Positions 6,619 through 25,449 of a DNA stretch of 46,931 nt are shown piece after piece. Position numbers and translations under genes: made by a program. Under the pieces are notes generated by a model, which saw nothing but the letters and a program-made list of their open reading frames with translations, did not search any database and was not told the DNA's origin. Numbering within the stretch: position 1 is the first letter of the stretch; every line of letters begins with the position of its first letter. Source of the DNA: Pseudomonadota bacterium (GTDB lineage Bacteria; Pseudomonadota; Gammaproteobacteria; Acidiferrobacterales; Acidiferrobacteraceae); assembly GCA_021841585.1 (NCBI GenBank), contig JAKBUS010000014.1, positions 1-46,931 on the forward strand, given 5' to 3'.

Positions 6619-8117
6619 GAACCGTGGGGACGCATATGCGGAAACAGGATGACATCGCGAATGCTTGGGGCATCCGTGAACAACATGACCAATCGGTCGA
6701 TACCGATCCCTTCGCCAGCAGTGGGCGGCATGCCGTATTCGAGCGCCTCGATATAATCGGCATCGTAGTGCATGGCCTCTTCGTCGCCATCCCCACGCCG
6801 CTCGACCTGGCGCCTGAAGCGCCGCGCCTGGTCCTCGGGGTCGTTCAACTCCGAAAAGCCGTTGGCGATCTCCCGGCCCCCGACGAACAGCTCGAAGCGG
6901 TCGGTCACGAACGCGTCGGAGTCGTTGCGCCGCGCAAGCGGCGAGACCTCCGCGGGATACGCGGTTATGAACGTCGGCTGCGATAAATGACTTTCGATGG
7001 TCTTTTCGAAGATCGCCATCTGCAACCCTCCAGCCTCGAGACCGGGCTCCACCGGCAGTCCCTTGGCGACCAGAAACGCGCGCAGCGCCGCGACATCGCG
7101 CAGGTCGGACGGGGCGTCGGCGTGATGGCGGCGAATCACCTCCTCGACCGTCCACCGCGCAAAGGGCACCCCCAAATCGTAGCACTCCCCCTGATAGGTG
7201 AGCGTGGACGTGCCGAGCACCTCCGCGCACATCCCACGCAACAGGACTTCCGTCATATCCATCAGATCACGATAGTCGGCATAGGCTTGGTAGAATTCGA
7301 CCATCGTGAATTCGGGGTTATGACGCGTGCTCAGGCCCTCATTGCGGAAATTGCGATTGATCTCGAAGACACGCTCAAAACCGCCAACCACGAGCCGCTT
7401 CAGGTAGAGCTCGGGCGCGATGCGCAGAAACAGCGGGATATCGAGCGCGTTATGGTGGGTCACGAACGGTCGCGCGGTTGCGCCGCCGGCGAGCGGCTGC
7501 ATCATCGGCGTCTCGACCTCACTGAACCCACGCCCTTTAAGGAACGCGCGCAGATAGGCAACGATGCGCTCGCGCCGCTCGAAGACCATACGCGTCTCGG
7601 GGTTTACGATAAGATCGAGATAGCGCTTGCGGTAGCGGGTTTCCTGATCGGTGAGCCCATGGAACTTCTCGGGCAAGGGCCGCAGGCTTTTGACAAGTAG
7701 CCGCAGATGCGCCGCGCGCACGCTCAACTCCCCGGTCTTCGTGCGGAACAGCCGCCCGGTCACACCGATGATGTCCCCGAGGTCCCAGCGCTTGAAGGCC
7801 TCGTAGGCCGAACCCACCACGTCACGTTCTATAAAGACCTGGACGCGCCCGGTGGCGTCCTGGATGTGGCAGAAGCTGACGCGCCCCATGACCCGCTTGG
7901 TCATGATCCGTCCGCCCAAGCGTAGCTCACCGGCGGCGGCCAACATCTCCTCCGGGGCGTCCCTATAGTCGGCCAGCAACGGGCCGGCCTGGCAATTGGG
8001 GCGAAAGTCGTTGGGGTACGCCCCACCCTCCGCTCGCCACGCCGAGAGCTTCTCGCGGCGTAGCGCGATATGGCGGTCCTCGTCTCCCGTGATCTCGTCG
8101 TCTTGCCCCTCGCTCAC
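6615..8117 (-). CDS. lysS: Lysyl-tRNA synthetase, class II
   Basis: 500 aa. Charges tRNA-Lys. The N-terminal OB-fold anticodon-binding domain (about residues 60-160, [20 protein letters not shown]) is followed by the class II catalytic core with motif 2 ([20 protein letters not shown]) and motif 3 ([11 protein letters not shown]). The start is a GTG at 8117, 16 nt after the prfB stop. The prfB-lysS order is the same as in E. coli. Full length and intact motifs. Confidence 0.96.
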
Positions 8118-22127: not shown

Positions 22128-22325
22128 CTAGGAGGGGGTGCCGTGAGAAAAGGCCCAGATCACGATCATCAACATGACCACGATATAAAGCCGCAGGCCC
22201 CAGAACACCCACTGCTGCCAGGCCTTCAGTGGGCGCGGGCTCACCTCGGGTAGAGGCCTGTCCCAGCCCTCCTCGCGCAAAAGGCGCGCGAGCTCGGCAT
22301 AATCGACGCGTTCGACACGTTTCAC
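22128..22325 (-). CDS. 65-aa single-pass membrane protein coupled to the NRAMP-like transporter
   Basis: 65 aa. The start GTG (22325-22323) overlaps the transporter stop TGA (22324-22322) as GTGA, so translation is likely coupled. A cytoplasmic-type, charged N-terminal half (YAELARLLREEGWDRPLPEV) is followed by one hydrophobic helix (about residues 39-59, WVFWGLRLYIVVMLMIVIWAF) and a short tail. No known family is recognised. Coupling and topology suggest an accessory subunit or regulator of the transporter; this is inference. Confidence 0.7.
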   Translation of the reverse strand: MKRVERVDYAELARLLREEGWDRPLPEVSPRPLKAWQQWVFWGLRLYIVVMLMIVIWAFSHGTPS

Positions 22326-23779
22326 TTCGCACCCCCAAGCGCATGCGGGAACACCGTGGTGATCCCATAAAGGGCATTACAAACGATCAGCAACACCATG
22401 ATCACAACCGCACCGATATTGCGGCTGCGGCTATTAACGAACGGCCCCATGAGCTCGGCGTCGTTTACGAGCATGAGAAGAAACAACATGGCCGCCGGCA
22501 TGAAGATCGTGGCAATCACCTGCACTGTGATATTCAGAAAGCCGAGCGGCACATGAGGCAACATGACGACCCCTGCGGCAACCGCCGAGCCCATGACCGC
22601 GGGCGCATAGAACGCCCAGGCCTTGCGCGGGGCATCGTTCAAGGACCGCGGGAGATTGAGCGCCTCCCCCATCGCCCAGGCGGTGCTGGCGGTGATCACG
22701 ATCGATGAGATGAGGCCGGCCTCTATCAGCCCGAGCGCAAAAAGGTCCGTCGCCCAGCCGCCGACATGATTCTGGAGGGCCCCGAGAATGCCTTCGACGT
22801 TCAGGTCCTTGGCATCGGGGAGCGCATGGAGGTGCTGCCCGGTCAATACGATGATGGCCATGGCTACGATCACCATCCCGGCGACCCCTAACATCAAATC
22901 GCGCCGGCTGGCGTCGATATCATGAGGCAGGAGACCCTTGTCGACGATGCACGACTGCTGGAAGAAAAGCTGCCATGGGGCGATCGTCGTCCCAATATTG
23001 GCCGACAGCAGAACGAGAAATCCCGAGGACAGCAATCCCCCGGGCACCAGCCAGTTACCGCCCACGAAGGCCCGTCCCACCGCCGACCAATCGGGATGTG
23101 ACAACAGCGCCAGGGGAACGAATACGAGGTTTAGGACGGCGATGAAAAGCGCGATCCGCTCCCAGGTCCAGTAGCGCAGGAATACGAGCACGAAGGCCAC
23201 GAAGATGAGCGTGATGGGTACCGTGAGCCAATGTGACAGACCGAAGACGTCGCCGCCCACGCGCACCCCGATGAACTCGGTCATGAGCGTCAGGATGTTG
23301 GCGATCACAAGGTCGGCGATCGAGAATATCCCCCAAAAGGCCCCGTAACGCTTCCAAATCAGCTCCGCATGGCCGCGGCGCGTGACCGCCCCCAGGCGTA
23401 TGGTCATCTCCTGAACGAAATAGGCCATGATCCCGAGCGGGATCATGATCGGCAGAAACACCCCGAGACCGTAGACCGCGCCCGTCTGCGAATAGGTGAT
23501 GACGCCACCCGCGTCATTATCCCCGAGCATGACAAGGAGACCTGGACCGATGAGCGCAAGCCACAATGCGAGACGATTGCCGATGGTCTTGGGGCCATTA
23601 CGCAATCGCGCGATCCGCAGGCGATCCTGCACGCGTATCAGCAGCGCCTCCGGCACTACCATTTCATCGGTCTCGCCACCCGGCGGCCTGACCCTGGCGC
23701 GCCGCTCGACTTGCCGCGCCTGCGCCGCCTTGGCTCGCAAAAGCGCCGCCCGTAACGCCTGAAGAACATGCACCTGCAT
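22322..23779 (-). CDS. NRAMP-family metal ion transporter, variant metal site
   Basis: 485 aa from the ATG at 23779, chosen because AGGGG lies 7 nt upstream; a start at 23815 is possible. A charged N-terminal extension of about 65 residues precedes roughly 11 membrane helices. NRAMP proteins import Mn2+ or Fe2+ with protons. The helix 1 hallmark DPGN reads DNDA here (D87-N88-D89-A90), and helix 6 IGATVMPHN reads IGTTIAPWQ (A267-P268-W269). The metal-binding Asn and Met are therefore missing. The overall fold is clearly NRAMP (GPGLLVML, helix 6 IGTT), but the substrate may differ, for example Mg2+ or another hard cation. It is followed by a coupled 65-aa membrane protein. Confidence 0.85.
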   Translation of the reverse strand: MQVHVLQALRAALLRAKAAQARQVERRARVRPPGGETDEMVVPEALLIRVQDRLRIARLRNGPKTIGNRLALWLALIGPGLLVMLGDNDAGGVITYSQTGAVYGLGVFLPIMIPLGIMAYFVQEMTIRLGAVTRRGHAELIWKRYGAFWGIFSIADLVIANILTLMTEFIGVRVGGDVFGLSHWLTVPITLIFVAFVLVFLRYWTWERIALFIAVLNLVFVPLALLSHPDWSAVGRAFVGGNWLVPGGLLSSGFLVLLSANIGTTIAPWQLFFQQSCIVDKGLLPHDIDASRRDLMLGVAGMVIVAMAIIVLTGQHLHALPDAKDLNVEGILGALQNHVGGWATDLFALGLIEAGLISSIVITASTAWAMGEALNLPRSLNDAPRKAWAFYAPAVMGSAVAAGVVMLPHVPLGFLNITVQVIATIFMPAAMLFLLMLVNDAELMGPFVNSRSRNIGAVVIMVLLIVCNALYGITTVFPHALGGAK

Positions 23780-24285
23780 GAGCGAACCCCTGATATGTCC
23801 TTGAAACCAGGCCACGCGCGCCCGACGGCGAGCGAACCCTCGTCTCTATAGATGCGATTTTGGGTGGGACGGGACTATGATGGGCCCGGACCCACGGTCT
23901 GCCCTCAGGCGACCGCGATCCAGTGTCATGCGAAGCGGGGTCTACCTTCAGGCGCTAAATGTGTCGCTACTACTACCCATTGGGTAGCGGGCCCTCCAAA
24001 TAAGCGGTCGTGCCGCGATGGCGGCTTTGTAGCAGCCCATCCCGGGGCTGTCAACGCCCGTGTGACGCCCTTTACAAAACACACCATAATTAAGGCCCGC
24101 CCGGCGCCGCGCGAGGTGCGGCCGCGTCCGCCCGCCAGCGTCTTCAAGCCGCATACTCGATCCCCATTTTTCCGACCCCCCTCCGCGCACAGCGACCCCC
24201 ACTGGCCGCTGTTGCCCGCCCGTAGCCTGCCCCCTTGGGGCCCGGTCCGCGGCACGCCCCACCCCTGGTCGGGCGCCGGCGGTTT
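23780..24285. other. 506-bp intergenic region upstream of the NRAMP gene
   Basis: No supportable gene. It should hold the transporter promoter: on the minus strand TATAGA lies in an AT-richer patch near 23850-23860. A 10-bp direct repeat GAGCGAACCC occurs at 23780-23789 and 23830-23839, exactly 50 bp apart. CTACCC-ATT-GGGTAG (23973-23987) is a small hairpin. An AT-rich island (TTTACAAAACACACCATAAT region, 24071-24093) lies toward the orphan gene end. I see no known Mn or Mg riboswitch. Confidence 0.4.
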
Positions 24286-25449
24286 CTACTGCGCGCCCCA
24301 GTGCTTCGTGGCGATGGCCTCACCGAGATCCAGATCCATCAGGCGCCGGCGCACCTCGAACAACTTTTCAAGCAATGCGGGCTCCGCGCGCGCATAACCC
24401 TCGGCATCCGGCACACGCTTTACGACGACACCCAAGAGCTCCGTGATGGCGTTGCCGATAGAGTTCTGGCTGATGGTGACGATGAGCTTACCCGTGTCAT
24501 TGCGGTAAATGAGCTGCTTGAATGCCGGCTGCCAACGGATCGCGTTCGCGTAACGGGCATCCCGTATGCAGTGGTCGCGCACCATCTTCGCGGTCTTCAG
24601 GAAGTTGCTGTTAAAGAGCAGCTTGTCCTCGACGAGCTCCGGAAAATAGATGTCGCGCGGCATCGGCGCGTTGCGTGTGGATACCTGCCCGAAAAAGGTT
24701 CTATAGAAGTCTATGAAGCCCTTCAGGATGGTGTCGTACTCCTTCCAGAATCGCACCTTCTTCAGGGAGTCCGCGCCCCCCTGGACCTCCCAGCTGGGCA
24801 GCCCCTGCGGGTAGCCTGTCAGCGCGATCTTGCAGGAGCCATGCTCGCAGGTCTTCAATATTTCGAGATCGAGGCCCGCAAAGAACTCGAGATAGACATT
24901 GCGCATGTAGGCCTGAAAAAGCGAGTTCTGCCCGCCATCCGTAAGGTTCGGATTCTCCGGATCGGCCATGCTCGACTTGCGCAACTGCTCCTTGTCGAAC
25001 ACGATGAAGTGATTGTGCAACATGCGGATACTCGGCACTCCCGGGGAGGTAAGCGGCCACGTGGCGTCCAAGCTCGCCTCGCCTGATAACACCAGCGCCT
25101 GGTCGGGATCCGGATAGCGCTCGAGCATGTAGGCGATTATGACTTCGTTCATGCGATTCCAGACGTTCTTCACGTTATCCGGAACCTGCGTGCGTCGCGC
25201 CGGACGCCCGAGCGGATCAAGGATGCTGCGCGCGGTGTTGTATATGATGGATGTATCGAATTCGTTGCTGTGGGCAATGGCCTTTCTGTAGAGCAGGAGT
25301 CCTTCCGGATTTTTGAGGAGGCCGTTGTTATCGGTAAGGTCGTTAAGGTTTTCCGTGCTGTTAAAGAATTCGTTGGGCTTCATTCCCTCCGGCACTTCAA
25401 GGGGAATCGGGCGAAAAGGATTTGTGATTTCTCGAGGACCTACCTGCAT
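24286..25449 (-). CDS. Orphan 387-aa cytoplasmic protein of unknown function
   Basis: I do not recognise this protein. The ATG at 25449 has AGGTGA 6 nt upstream. There is no signal peptide and no membrane segment. The N-terminal 60 residues are Asn- and Pro-rich (NEFFNSTENLNDLTDNNGLL). A central block has SPGVPSIRMLHNHFIVFDKE, whose HNHF is HIT/GalT-like in appearance only. There are Cys/His clusters (KTCEHGSCK, RDHCIRD). Large aromatic content (FRTFF, EFFAGLDLE) suggests a compact globular fold. It ends with a helical, charged tail. It stands alone between two long non-coding stretches and has a highly structured 5' leader. Its length and composition are those of a real gene; no function is claimed. 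Confidence 0.8.
   Translation of the reverse strand: MQVGPREITNPFRPIPLEVPEGMKPNEFFNSTENLNDLTDNNGLLKNPEGLLLYRKAIAHSNEFDTSIIYNTARSILDPLGRPARRTQVPDNVKNVWNRMNEVIIAYMLERYPDPDQALVLSGEASLDATWPLTSPGVPSIRMLHNHFIVFDKEQLRKSSMADPENPNLTDGGQNSLFQAYMRNVYLEFFAGLDLEILKTCEHGSCKIALTGYPQGLPSWEVQGGADSLKKVRFWKEYDTILKGFIDFYRTFFGQVSTRNAPMPRDIYFPELVEDKLLFNSNFLKTAKMVRDHCIRDARYANAIRWQPAFKQLIYRNDTGKLIVTISQNSIGNAITELLGVVVKRVPDAEGYARAEPALLEKLFEVRRRLMDLDLGEAIATKHWGAQ

Follow-up and report, generated by a model that had tools for sequence, protein, structure and literature searches.

A probable two-gene operon for Mg2+ uptake: an NRMT-type transporter encoded beside a conserved single-helix membrane protein in an Acidiferrobacteraceae bacterium

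Introduction

The window analysed here, a stretch of 46,931 nucleotides from a Pseudomonadota bacterium of the Acidiferrobacteraceae (assembly GCA_021841585.1, contig JAKBUS010000014.1), encodes an Nramp-related transporter with rewritten metal-site motifs, which raises the question of what such a protein carries and whether it acts alone. The initial annotation, made from the letters of the window, proposed a subfamily with another substrate and called for a phylogeny and a structural model of the site; as cases against its proposal it named Mn2+/Fe2+ carriers with the same residues among close homologues and an improved alignment in which the motif returns. Our analysis makes it likely that the locus encodes a two-component Mg2+ importer, formed by an NRMT and a single-helix accessory subunit. 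The gene for the latter, adjacent to the transporter and overlooked in the first reading, is the novel part of the locus, and the rewriting of the metal site is of a known kind, that of the NRMTs.

Results and Discussion

The transporter and its metal site

The NRAMP-family ORF annotated at 22322-23779 is confirmed, being open on the minus strand and matching Pfam PF01566 (Nramp) with an E-value of 1.5e-62. An alternative GTG start is also open, with which the ORF occupies 22322-23815 (minus). The features of the transporter are the following:

22322..23779, minus strand: NRMT-type Nramp-related transporter, 485 amino acids from the ATG (PF01566, AF2 model, Foldseek)
23504..23515, minus strand: TM1 metal-site motif D89-A90-G91-G92, canonical DPGN (alignment to EleNRMT)
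22979..22990, minus strand: TM6 metal-site residues T264 to A267, canonical AxxM (alignment to EleNRMT)

The closest solved relative found by phmmer is EleNRMT of Eggerthella lenta (7qia; E 1.7e-49, about 30% identity), the ScaDMT entries being far weaker (E 6e-11 and above). The structural model that had been called for, obtained with AF2 from 48 sequences (mean pLDDT 89.2, pTM 0.85), has 11 membrane helices, and TM1 and TM6 are broken at residues 88-89 and 266-267, at the metal site. This model matches EleNRMT best, which occupies Foldseek ranks 1 and 2 with a TM-score by target of 0.88-0.89. Canonical MntH/NRAMP proteins share with the window transporter the LeuT-type fold, the TM1 Asp and the TM3 Glu, but their site Asn and Met are lost in it, and the NCBIfam MntH model gives it 101.7 bits, short of the cut-off of 430. 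The approximately 64 residues before TM1 (window 23589-23779, minus) are predicted by AF2 to be helical, with lower confidence, and the alignment of EleNRMT to the window transporter starts only at TM1, near residue 69.

In that alignment NDAGG and IGTTIAPW are written with the same letters in both proteins. It bears out the helix 6 change that had been read from the sequence, IGATVMPHN to IGTTIAPWQ, and shows that the Asn and the Met of the site are indeed lost, G92 and A267 (ATG numbering) standing in their places. The reading of helix 1, in which DPGN became DNDA, was off by two in register and has to be rejected, as the alignment pairs DPGN with DAGG and the metal-binding Asp is retained as D89, inside GDNDAGG. 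The NRMT signature DxxG-TxxA/T, as given in the available text of PMC8806188, is present as D89, G92, T264 and A267, and DAGG and TTIA stand where canonical MntH proteins have DxxN (TM1) and A/CxxM (TM6). Since D89, G92, T264, A267 and W269 are invariant in a 48-row alignment, these site residues are not an effect of chance or of sequencing. EleNRMT (7qia/7qji) shares the site D, G, T, A and W, the TM10 Gln, the fold and the replacement of the TM6b His by Trp. In the window transporter the TM6b His residues have given way to the non-proton-accepting W269 and Q274, the second of which is Asn in EleNRMT. As EleNRMT carries Mg2+ and Mn2+, not Ca2+, and does so without proton coupling (available text of PMC8806188), the window transporter would by analogy also lack coupling to H+.

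A small gene directly downstream of the transporter

22128..22325, minus strand: small single-helix membrane protein, 65 amino acids; the GTG start overlaps the transporter stop codon (GTGA); motif L44-R45-x-Y47

The AF2 model of the small protein has one membrane helix, at residues 35-62, and L44, R45 and Y47 of the L-R-x-Y motif are the sole invariant columns in a 45-row alignment of small proteins. Because third-position changes dominate (651, 360 and 1315 differences at codon positions 1, 2 and 3, in 55 pairs from 11 sequences of the genus) and pN/pS has a median of 0.23 in the 55 pairs (range 0.10-0.34), the gene must be regarded as translated and selected. Five representatives of the small protein gave no match above cut-off in Pfam or NCBIfam. 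Below the cut-offs there were FixQ (E 3.9), CTV_P6 (E 0.29) and, in one protein, TIGR04222 (E 3.5e-4, 20.3 of 43 bits). Foldseek returned no match for the small-protein model at E up to 0.001. In RefSeq, two of these genes are labelled "hypothetical protein", ACRY_RS02115 on plasmid pACRY04 of Acidiphilium cryptum and ATC_RS14775 on the megaplasmid of Acidithiobacillus caldus, and in the incomplete PLSDB table the Citrobacter copy has no entry for the small gene. Searches of open-licence PMC papers turned up no accessory subunit for any Nramp, and the word "subunit" is absent from the available portions of PMC8806188 and PMC12873925.

Distribution of the small gene

Loci were taken from the best 80 of a contig scan, the relatives of the window, two phylum samples (at most 30 loci each) and four plasmid stretches, with duplicates dropped, and were tallied by site motif into groups I to VI. 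The best 80 loci come from bacteria (Acidiferrobacter, Rhodanobacter, Acidocella, other Acetobacteraceae, Alicyclobacillus, Sulfobacillus, other Bacillota, Chlorobi and others) and from archaea (Micrarchaeota, Marsarchaeota and Thermoplasmata). The small gene was recognised as a single membrane helix with L-R-x-Y lying directly 3' of an NRMT or fused to it; as a separate gene it has 53-99 codons.

Among the matches listed, group I (NDAGG, TT/SIAPW), to which the window belongs, has the small ORF in 102 of 104 testable loci, four further loci being untestable at contig ends. In its two exceptions, L108 and L109, a similar ORF occupies this position but reads LAWY where the others have LRxY. The small ORF is also present in all five listed loci of group IV (ENDxPS, GATVTPW), and in group III (NDAGA or NDAGGF, TTxAPWQ) the LRxY helix is fused to the C-terminus of the transporter in 8/8 listed loci. 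Among the same listed matches it was found in none of the 41 loci of groups II (EleNRMT-like, 0/23), V (DTDxGS, GAVIMPW; 0/4) and VI (DDPSG, TTISPY; 0/14). It must be taken into account that the loci are not all independent, since L026-L032 repeat species of L010-L018; the 94 small ORFs in L006-L105 comprise 85 distinct sequences, and a 4-nt overlap with the transporter occurs in 30 of the 94. The group IV loci L113, L114, L165, L166 and L171 carry ENDGPS or ENDAPS in TM1 and GATVTPW in TM6, together with a divergent small partner gene.

The association also emerged when the small protein was searched for by itself. A profile of 14 sequences matched 7 of 397 Pseudomonadota genomes (E up to 0.01), and six of these matches lie directly 3' of an independently found Nramp-related ORF (the window, G151, G149 and G094) or inside a fused one (G242 and G348). 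The seventh, in G194 (E 0.007), where no Nramp-related neighbour was found, is probably due to chance. The sensitivity of the profile at E 0.01 is limited, five of the seven fused genomes and the LAWY genomes G175 and G199 having been missed. When the small family was compared by hhalign with the seven fused group III tails, the match had a probability of 80.5% and an E-value of 1.3e-5 over 39 columns, whereas the C-terminal ends of group I, II, V and VI transporters, used as controls, stayed below 1%. The small protein, apparently undescribed, accompanies the transporter in both bacteria and archaea, and in some of them the two form one chain; it is therefore probably a component of the transporter that has so far been missed.

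The NRMT operon is a trait that travels by plasmid. Plasmid-borne group I operons occur in Acidiphilium, Acidithiobacillus caldus and Citrobacter freundii (L173, L174, L175 and a plasmid search), and for group III there is a plasmid copy in Alicyclobacillus curvatus. A 41% match was also obtained on a Serratia marcescens plasmid.

Phylogeny of the transporters

The phylogeny that had been called for was obtained in part: FastTree was run on 126 sequences, with no canonical MntH included, and set the window clade apart from the canonical-like group VI (support 0.999). EleNRMT groups with the partner-less group II (0.632), outside the clade I+III+IV+V that holds the window and that has a support of 0.955. 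Within this clade, the supports are 0.989 for I+IV and 1.0 each for III and V. The tree suggests that the partner-bearing groups sit together, and the partner may have been lost in group V. A single gain of the partner is weakly supported and was not adopted, as I+III+IV is recovered at only 0.287.

Candidate contact residues

23312..23314, minus strand: D156 in TM3; Asp in 89/89 partner-bearing and 0/37 partner-less tree sequences
22721..22723, minus strand: E353 in TM8, proposed counter-charge; acidic in 86/89 partner-bearing and 0/37 partner-less sequences

Two columns, D156 (TM3) and A423 (TM10), split the 89 partner-bearing from the 37 partner-less sequences perfectly, with the caveat that columns tracking the partner also mark clades without any contact. 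EleNRMT has Ala at both 156 and 353. Of the three exceptions at position 353, two are L108 and L109, the transporters paired with an Arg-less small protein; both carry Thr there, and of the 11 columns with an acid in at least 95% of the remaining 87 sequences it is the sole one that the two have lost. The third exception, L107, has Asn at 353 and yet keeps the Arg. This is a hint, from one event in two sister sequences, in favour of an Arg45-Glu353 pair. D156 was rejected as the counterpart of the Arg, since L108 and L109 keep it though their partner has no Arg, and E353 fits better.

Small membrane proteins such as MgtS and MntS act as regulators, and the small protein could in principle be an independent regulator of this kind, which inhibits the transporter, tunes it or targets it for turnover, and not a standing subunit. 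Its size and single helix would fit such a role, and adjacency and overlap fit both roles. Nevertheless, we consider a regulator unlikely, given that the fusion in 8/8 listed group III loci and the all but constant occurrence in group I are more in keeping with a permanent 1:1 part than with an occasional regulator, and that conserved membrane acids track the partner.

Links to Mg2+

The Rfam M-box was found upstream, on the same strand, at 18 of the 22 Bacillota group I loci tested, with 107-160 bits; in this tally the duplicate locus L145 was dropped, and L083, one of the negatives, has little upstream sequence. At the 24 group I loci tested from outside the Bacillota, one of them the window, no M-box was found, nor was there one at seven group II, two group III and two group IV loci (flanks of about 1.5 kb). 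Before the window transporter, Rfam gave no riboswitch at the gathering threshold, nor when the limit was relaxed to E 5 and 10; sX12 (E 4.9) and mir-921 (E 1.5) were discarded there as chance matches.

A second link is given by the neighbours. In 14 group I loci among the matches listed, a gene like the one at L024 lies 3' of the small gene, and its product combines a PRC barrel, MgtE_N and CBS (Pfam, checked on two). MgtE-N-like genes also adjoin NrmT genes in the available text of PMC4072509. According to the same source, NrmT of Clostridium acetobutylicum (CabNRMT) is a Mg2+ importer under M-box control with an MgtE-N-like neighbour, as in the 14 group I loci; the comparison is by description only, and it differs in that the small ORF described there is the MgtE-N-like gene, with no single-helix partner in the available part of the description. 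Among the eight window proteins scanned with Pfam there was no MgtE_N. In plasmid pACRY04 of Acidiphilium cryptum, the transporter is followed by the small gene ACRY_RS02115 and then by MgtC.

The region before the window transporter is conserved in the genus:

23780..24054, minus strand: upstream block with a promoter-like site and leader (TTGACA at 24054-24049, 17 nt, TACAAA at 24031-24026, leader to the ATG)

This block is kept in 13/13 genus sequences aligned and has no Rfam match. The leader is at most a candidate for a new structured RNA, its fold being no better than that of shuffles (z -0.50); seven of the 57 predicted pairs are changed on both sides. Among 43 sources its covariance model finds only the genus, plus one weak match in the window at 7375-7520 (plus; 17.9 bits, E 0.005), perhaps by chance.

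Absence of CorA and MgtE

Neither CorA nor MgtE occurs in the genome of the window, which is 99.67% complete. A match to the window protein is present in 23 of the 41 genomes of its order, and these 23 lack both CorA and MgtE above cut-off (G034 has a CorA match below it, E 9.3e-4), while MgtE is present in 18/18 order genomes without a match to the window protein. Eighteen of the 23 are at least 90% complete; G007 and G040, counted among them with matches of only 33-34%, may lack a group I gene. The exclusion comes from two lineages (families f1 and f5), and one of these includes G038, with MgtE and MgtA and without an NRMT, so the Fisher value of 5e-12 overstates independence. A MgtA-type ATPase was rejected as the alternative in the order, TIGR01524 being above cut-off in 2/41 genomes only (G016 and G038). 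In other lineages, 50 group I genomes (of 72 eligible loci) have CorA in 17 cases and MgtE in five, and either of them in 20, so that strict replacement outside the order does not hold; among control genomes CorA is present in 13/14 and MgtE in 9/14. The replacement of CorA and MgtE is therefore strong within the order and partial elsewhere. Together with the M-box at Bacillota loci and the MgtE_N/CBS genes, the exclusion of CorA and MgtE in the order supports Mg2+ as the substrate.

These observations also bear on the possibility that the main cargo of the operon is Mn2+ (or Fe2+), Mg2+ being a side substrate. EleNRMT also carries Mn2+ (available text of PMC8806188), and NrmT of Acidobacterium capsulatum acted mainly on Mn2+ according to the available text of PMC4072509, which partly touches the counter-case named in the initial annotation. 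Moreover, the exclusion of CorA and MgtE, seen in two lineages, could be a lineage effect. The M-box at 18/22 Bacillota loci of the clade, the MgtE_N/CBS genes at 14 listed loci and a 99.67% complete genome without CorA and MgtE speak against a mainly Mn2+-importing operon, which is quite unlikely in our view.

A probable two-component Mg2+ importer

Small helper subunits encoded beside the transporter are known for bacterial LeuT-fold transporters of other families (MetS of MetPS). A parallel in architecture is the eukaryotic sugar transporter SGLT2, also of LeuT fold, whose single-helix auxiliary subunit MAP17 is needed for activity or surface expression, stabilises it and touches TM13 (available text of PMC10803289). 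On this model, the window would hold a two-gene operon for Mg2+ uptake. By analogy with EleNRMT, mostly hydrated Mg2+ would bind between TM1 and TM6, where a site of Asp, Gly, Thr and Ala would leave space for a largely hydrated ion, and alternating access would release it inward. The one-helix protein would bind the NRMT as a twelfth membrane helix, aiding folding or activity. Placed against the hash domain near TM8, and perhaps held by Arg45-Glu353, it may stabilise the transporter as MAP17 does SGLT2. Physical binding, a helper role of the small helix and Mg2+ transport by the window protein are inferences. The small gene would set apart one branch of the NRMTs (groups I and IV, and as one chain in group III), and in the window's family the operon would stand in for CorA and MgtE, as the Mg2+ importer that can be recognised there. 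Among the points against the two-component importer, besides the incomplete exclusion outside the order and the missing M-box at the window, are that EleNRMT is active alone, without a partner, and that the NRMT signature does not fix the substrate, as A. capsulatum NrmT illustrates (available text of PMC4072509).

A more demanding version makes the small helix an obligatory subunit. Its Arg would pair with the clade-specific membrane acids (E353, perhaps D156), and these charges would form a network in the hash domain, at the site of the proton path of canonical Nramps; coupling or gating through this network would let acid-living cells import Mg2+ despite a weak or reversed inside-negative potential. 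As a whole we regard this version as quite improbable.

That the rewritten motifs by themselves set a new, undescribed substrate subfamily is very improbable, because, although Asn and Met are gone from the site, the residues D, G, T, A and W are identical to those of EleNRMT and the signature is published as that of the NRMTs (available text of PMC8806188). The subfamily with another substrate proposed in the initial annotation was rightly recognised, but it had already been described, as the NRMTs with DxxG-TxxA/T (available text of PMC8806188 and PMC4072509). Its premise that loss of the Met relaxes discrimination against Mg2+ and Ca2+ holds for Ca2+ and fails for Mg2+ in EcoDMT, where Met-to-Ala lets in Ca2+ and not Mg2+ (available text of PMC8806188).

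If the two-component importer is real, the NRMTs of this clade have so far been studied without one part, and expressing the small protein along with the transporter could make the partner clade accessible to biochemistry, because among the 82 NRMT homologues screened EleNRMT, from a partner-less group, was far better behaved than the rest (available text of PMC8806188). The Mg2+ supply of bacteria without CorA or MgtE would become testable as well. The locus is also a warning that conserved genes of 53-99 codons beside transporters are easily overlooked.

Other Nramp relatives and ORFs

A second Nramp relative, at G000:C1:17696-18871 (L001, 1384-2637, minus), has a hybrid site with DTDAGS in TM1 and GAVIMPW in TM6, in which the Met is kept and the Asn is replaced by Ser. 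The same motifs recur in L119-L121, and the small partner is found at 0/4 of these loci. A third relative, at G000:C43:2782-3876 (L003-L005), carries DDPSN and GTTISPY, and its coding sequence runs over more than one frame, being either a disrupted gene or an assembly error. In the window, upstream of the transporter, lies an ORF of 387 amino acids (24286-25449, minus) with no Pfam or NCBIfam match at E 0.01.
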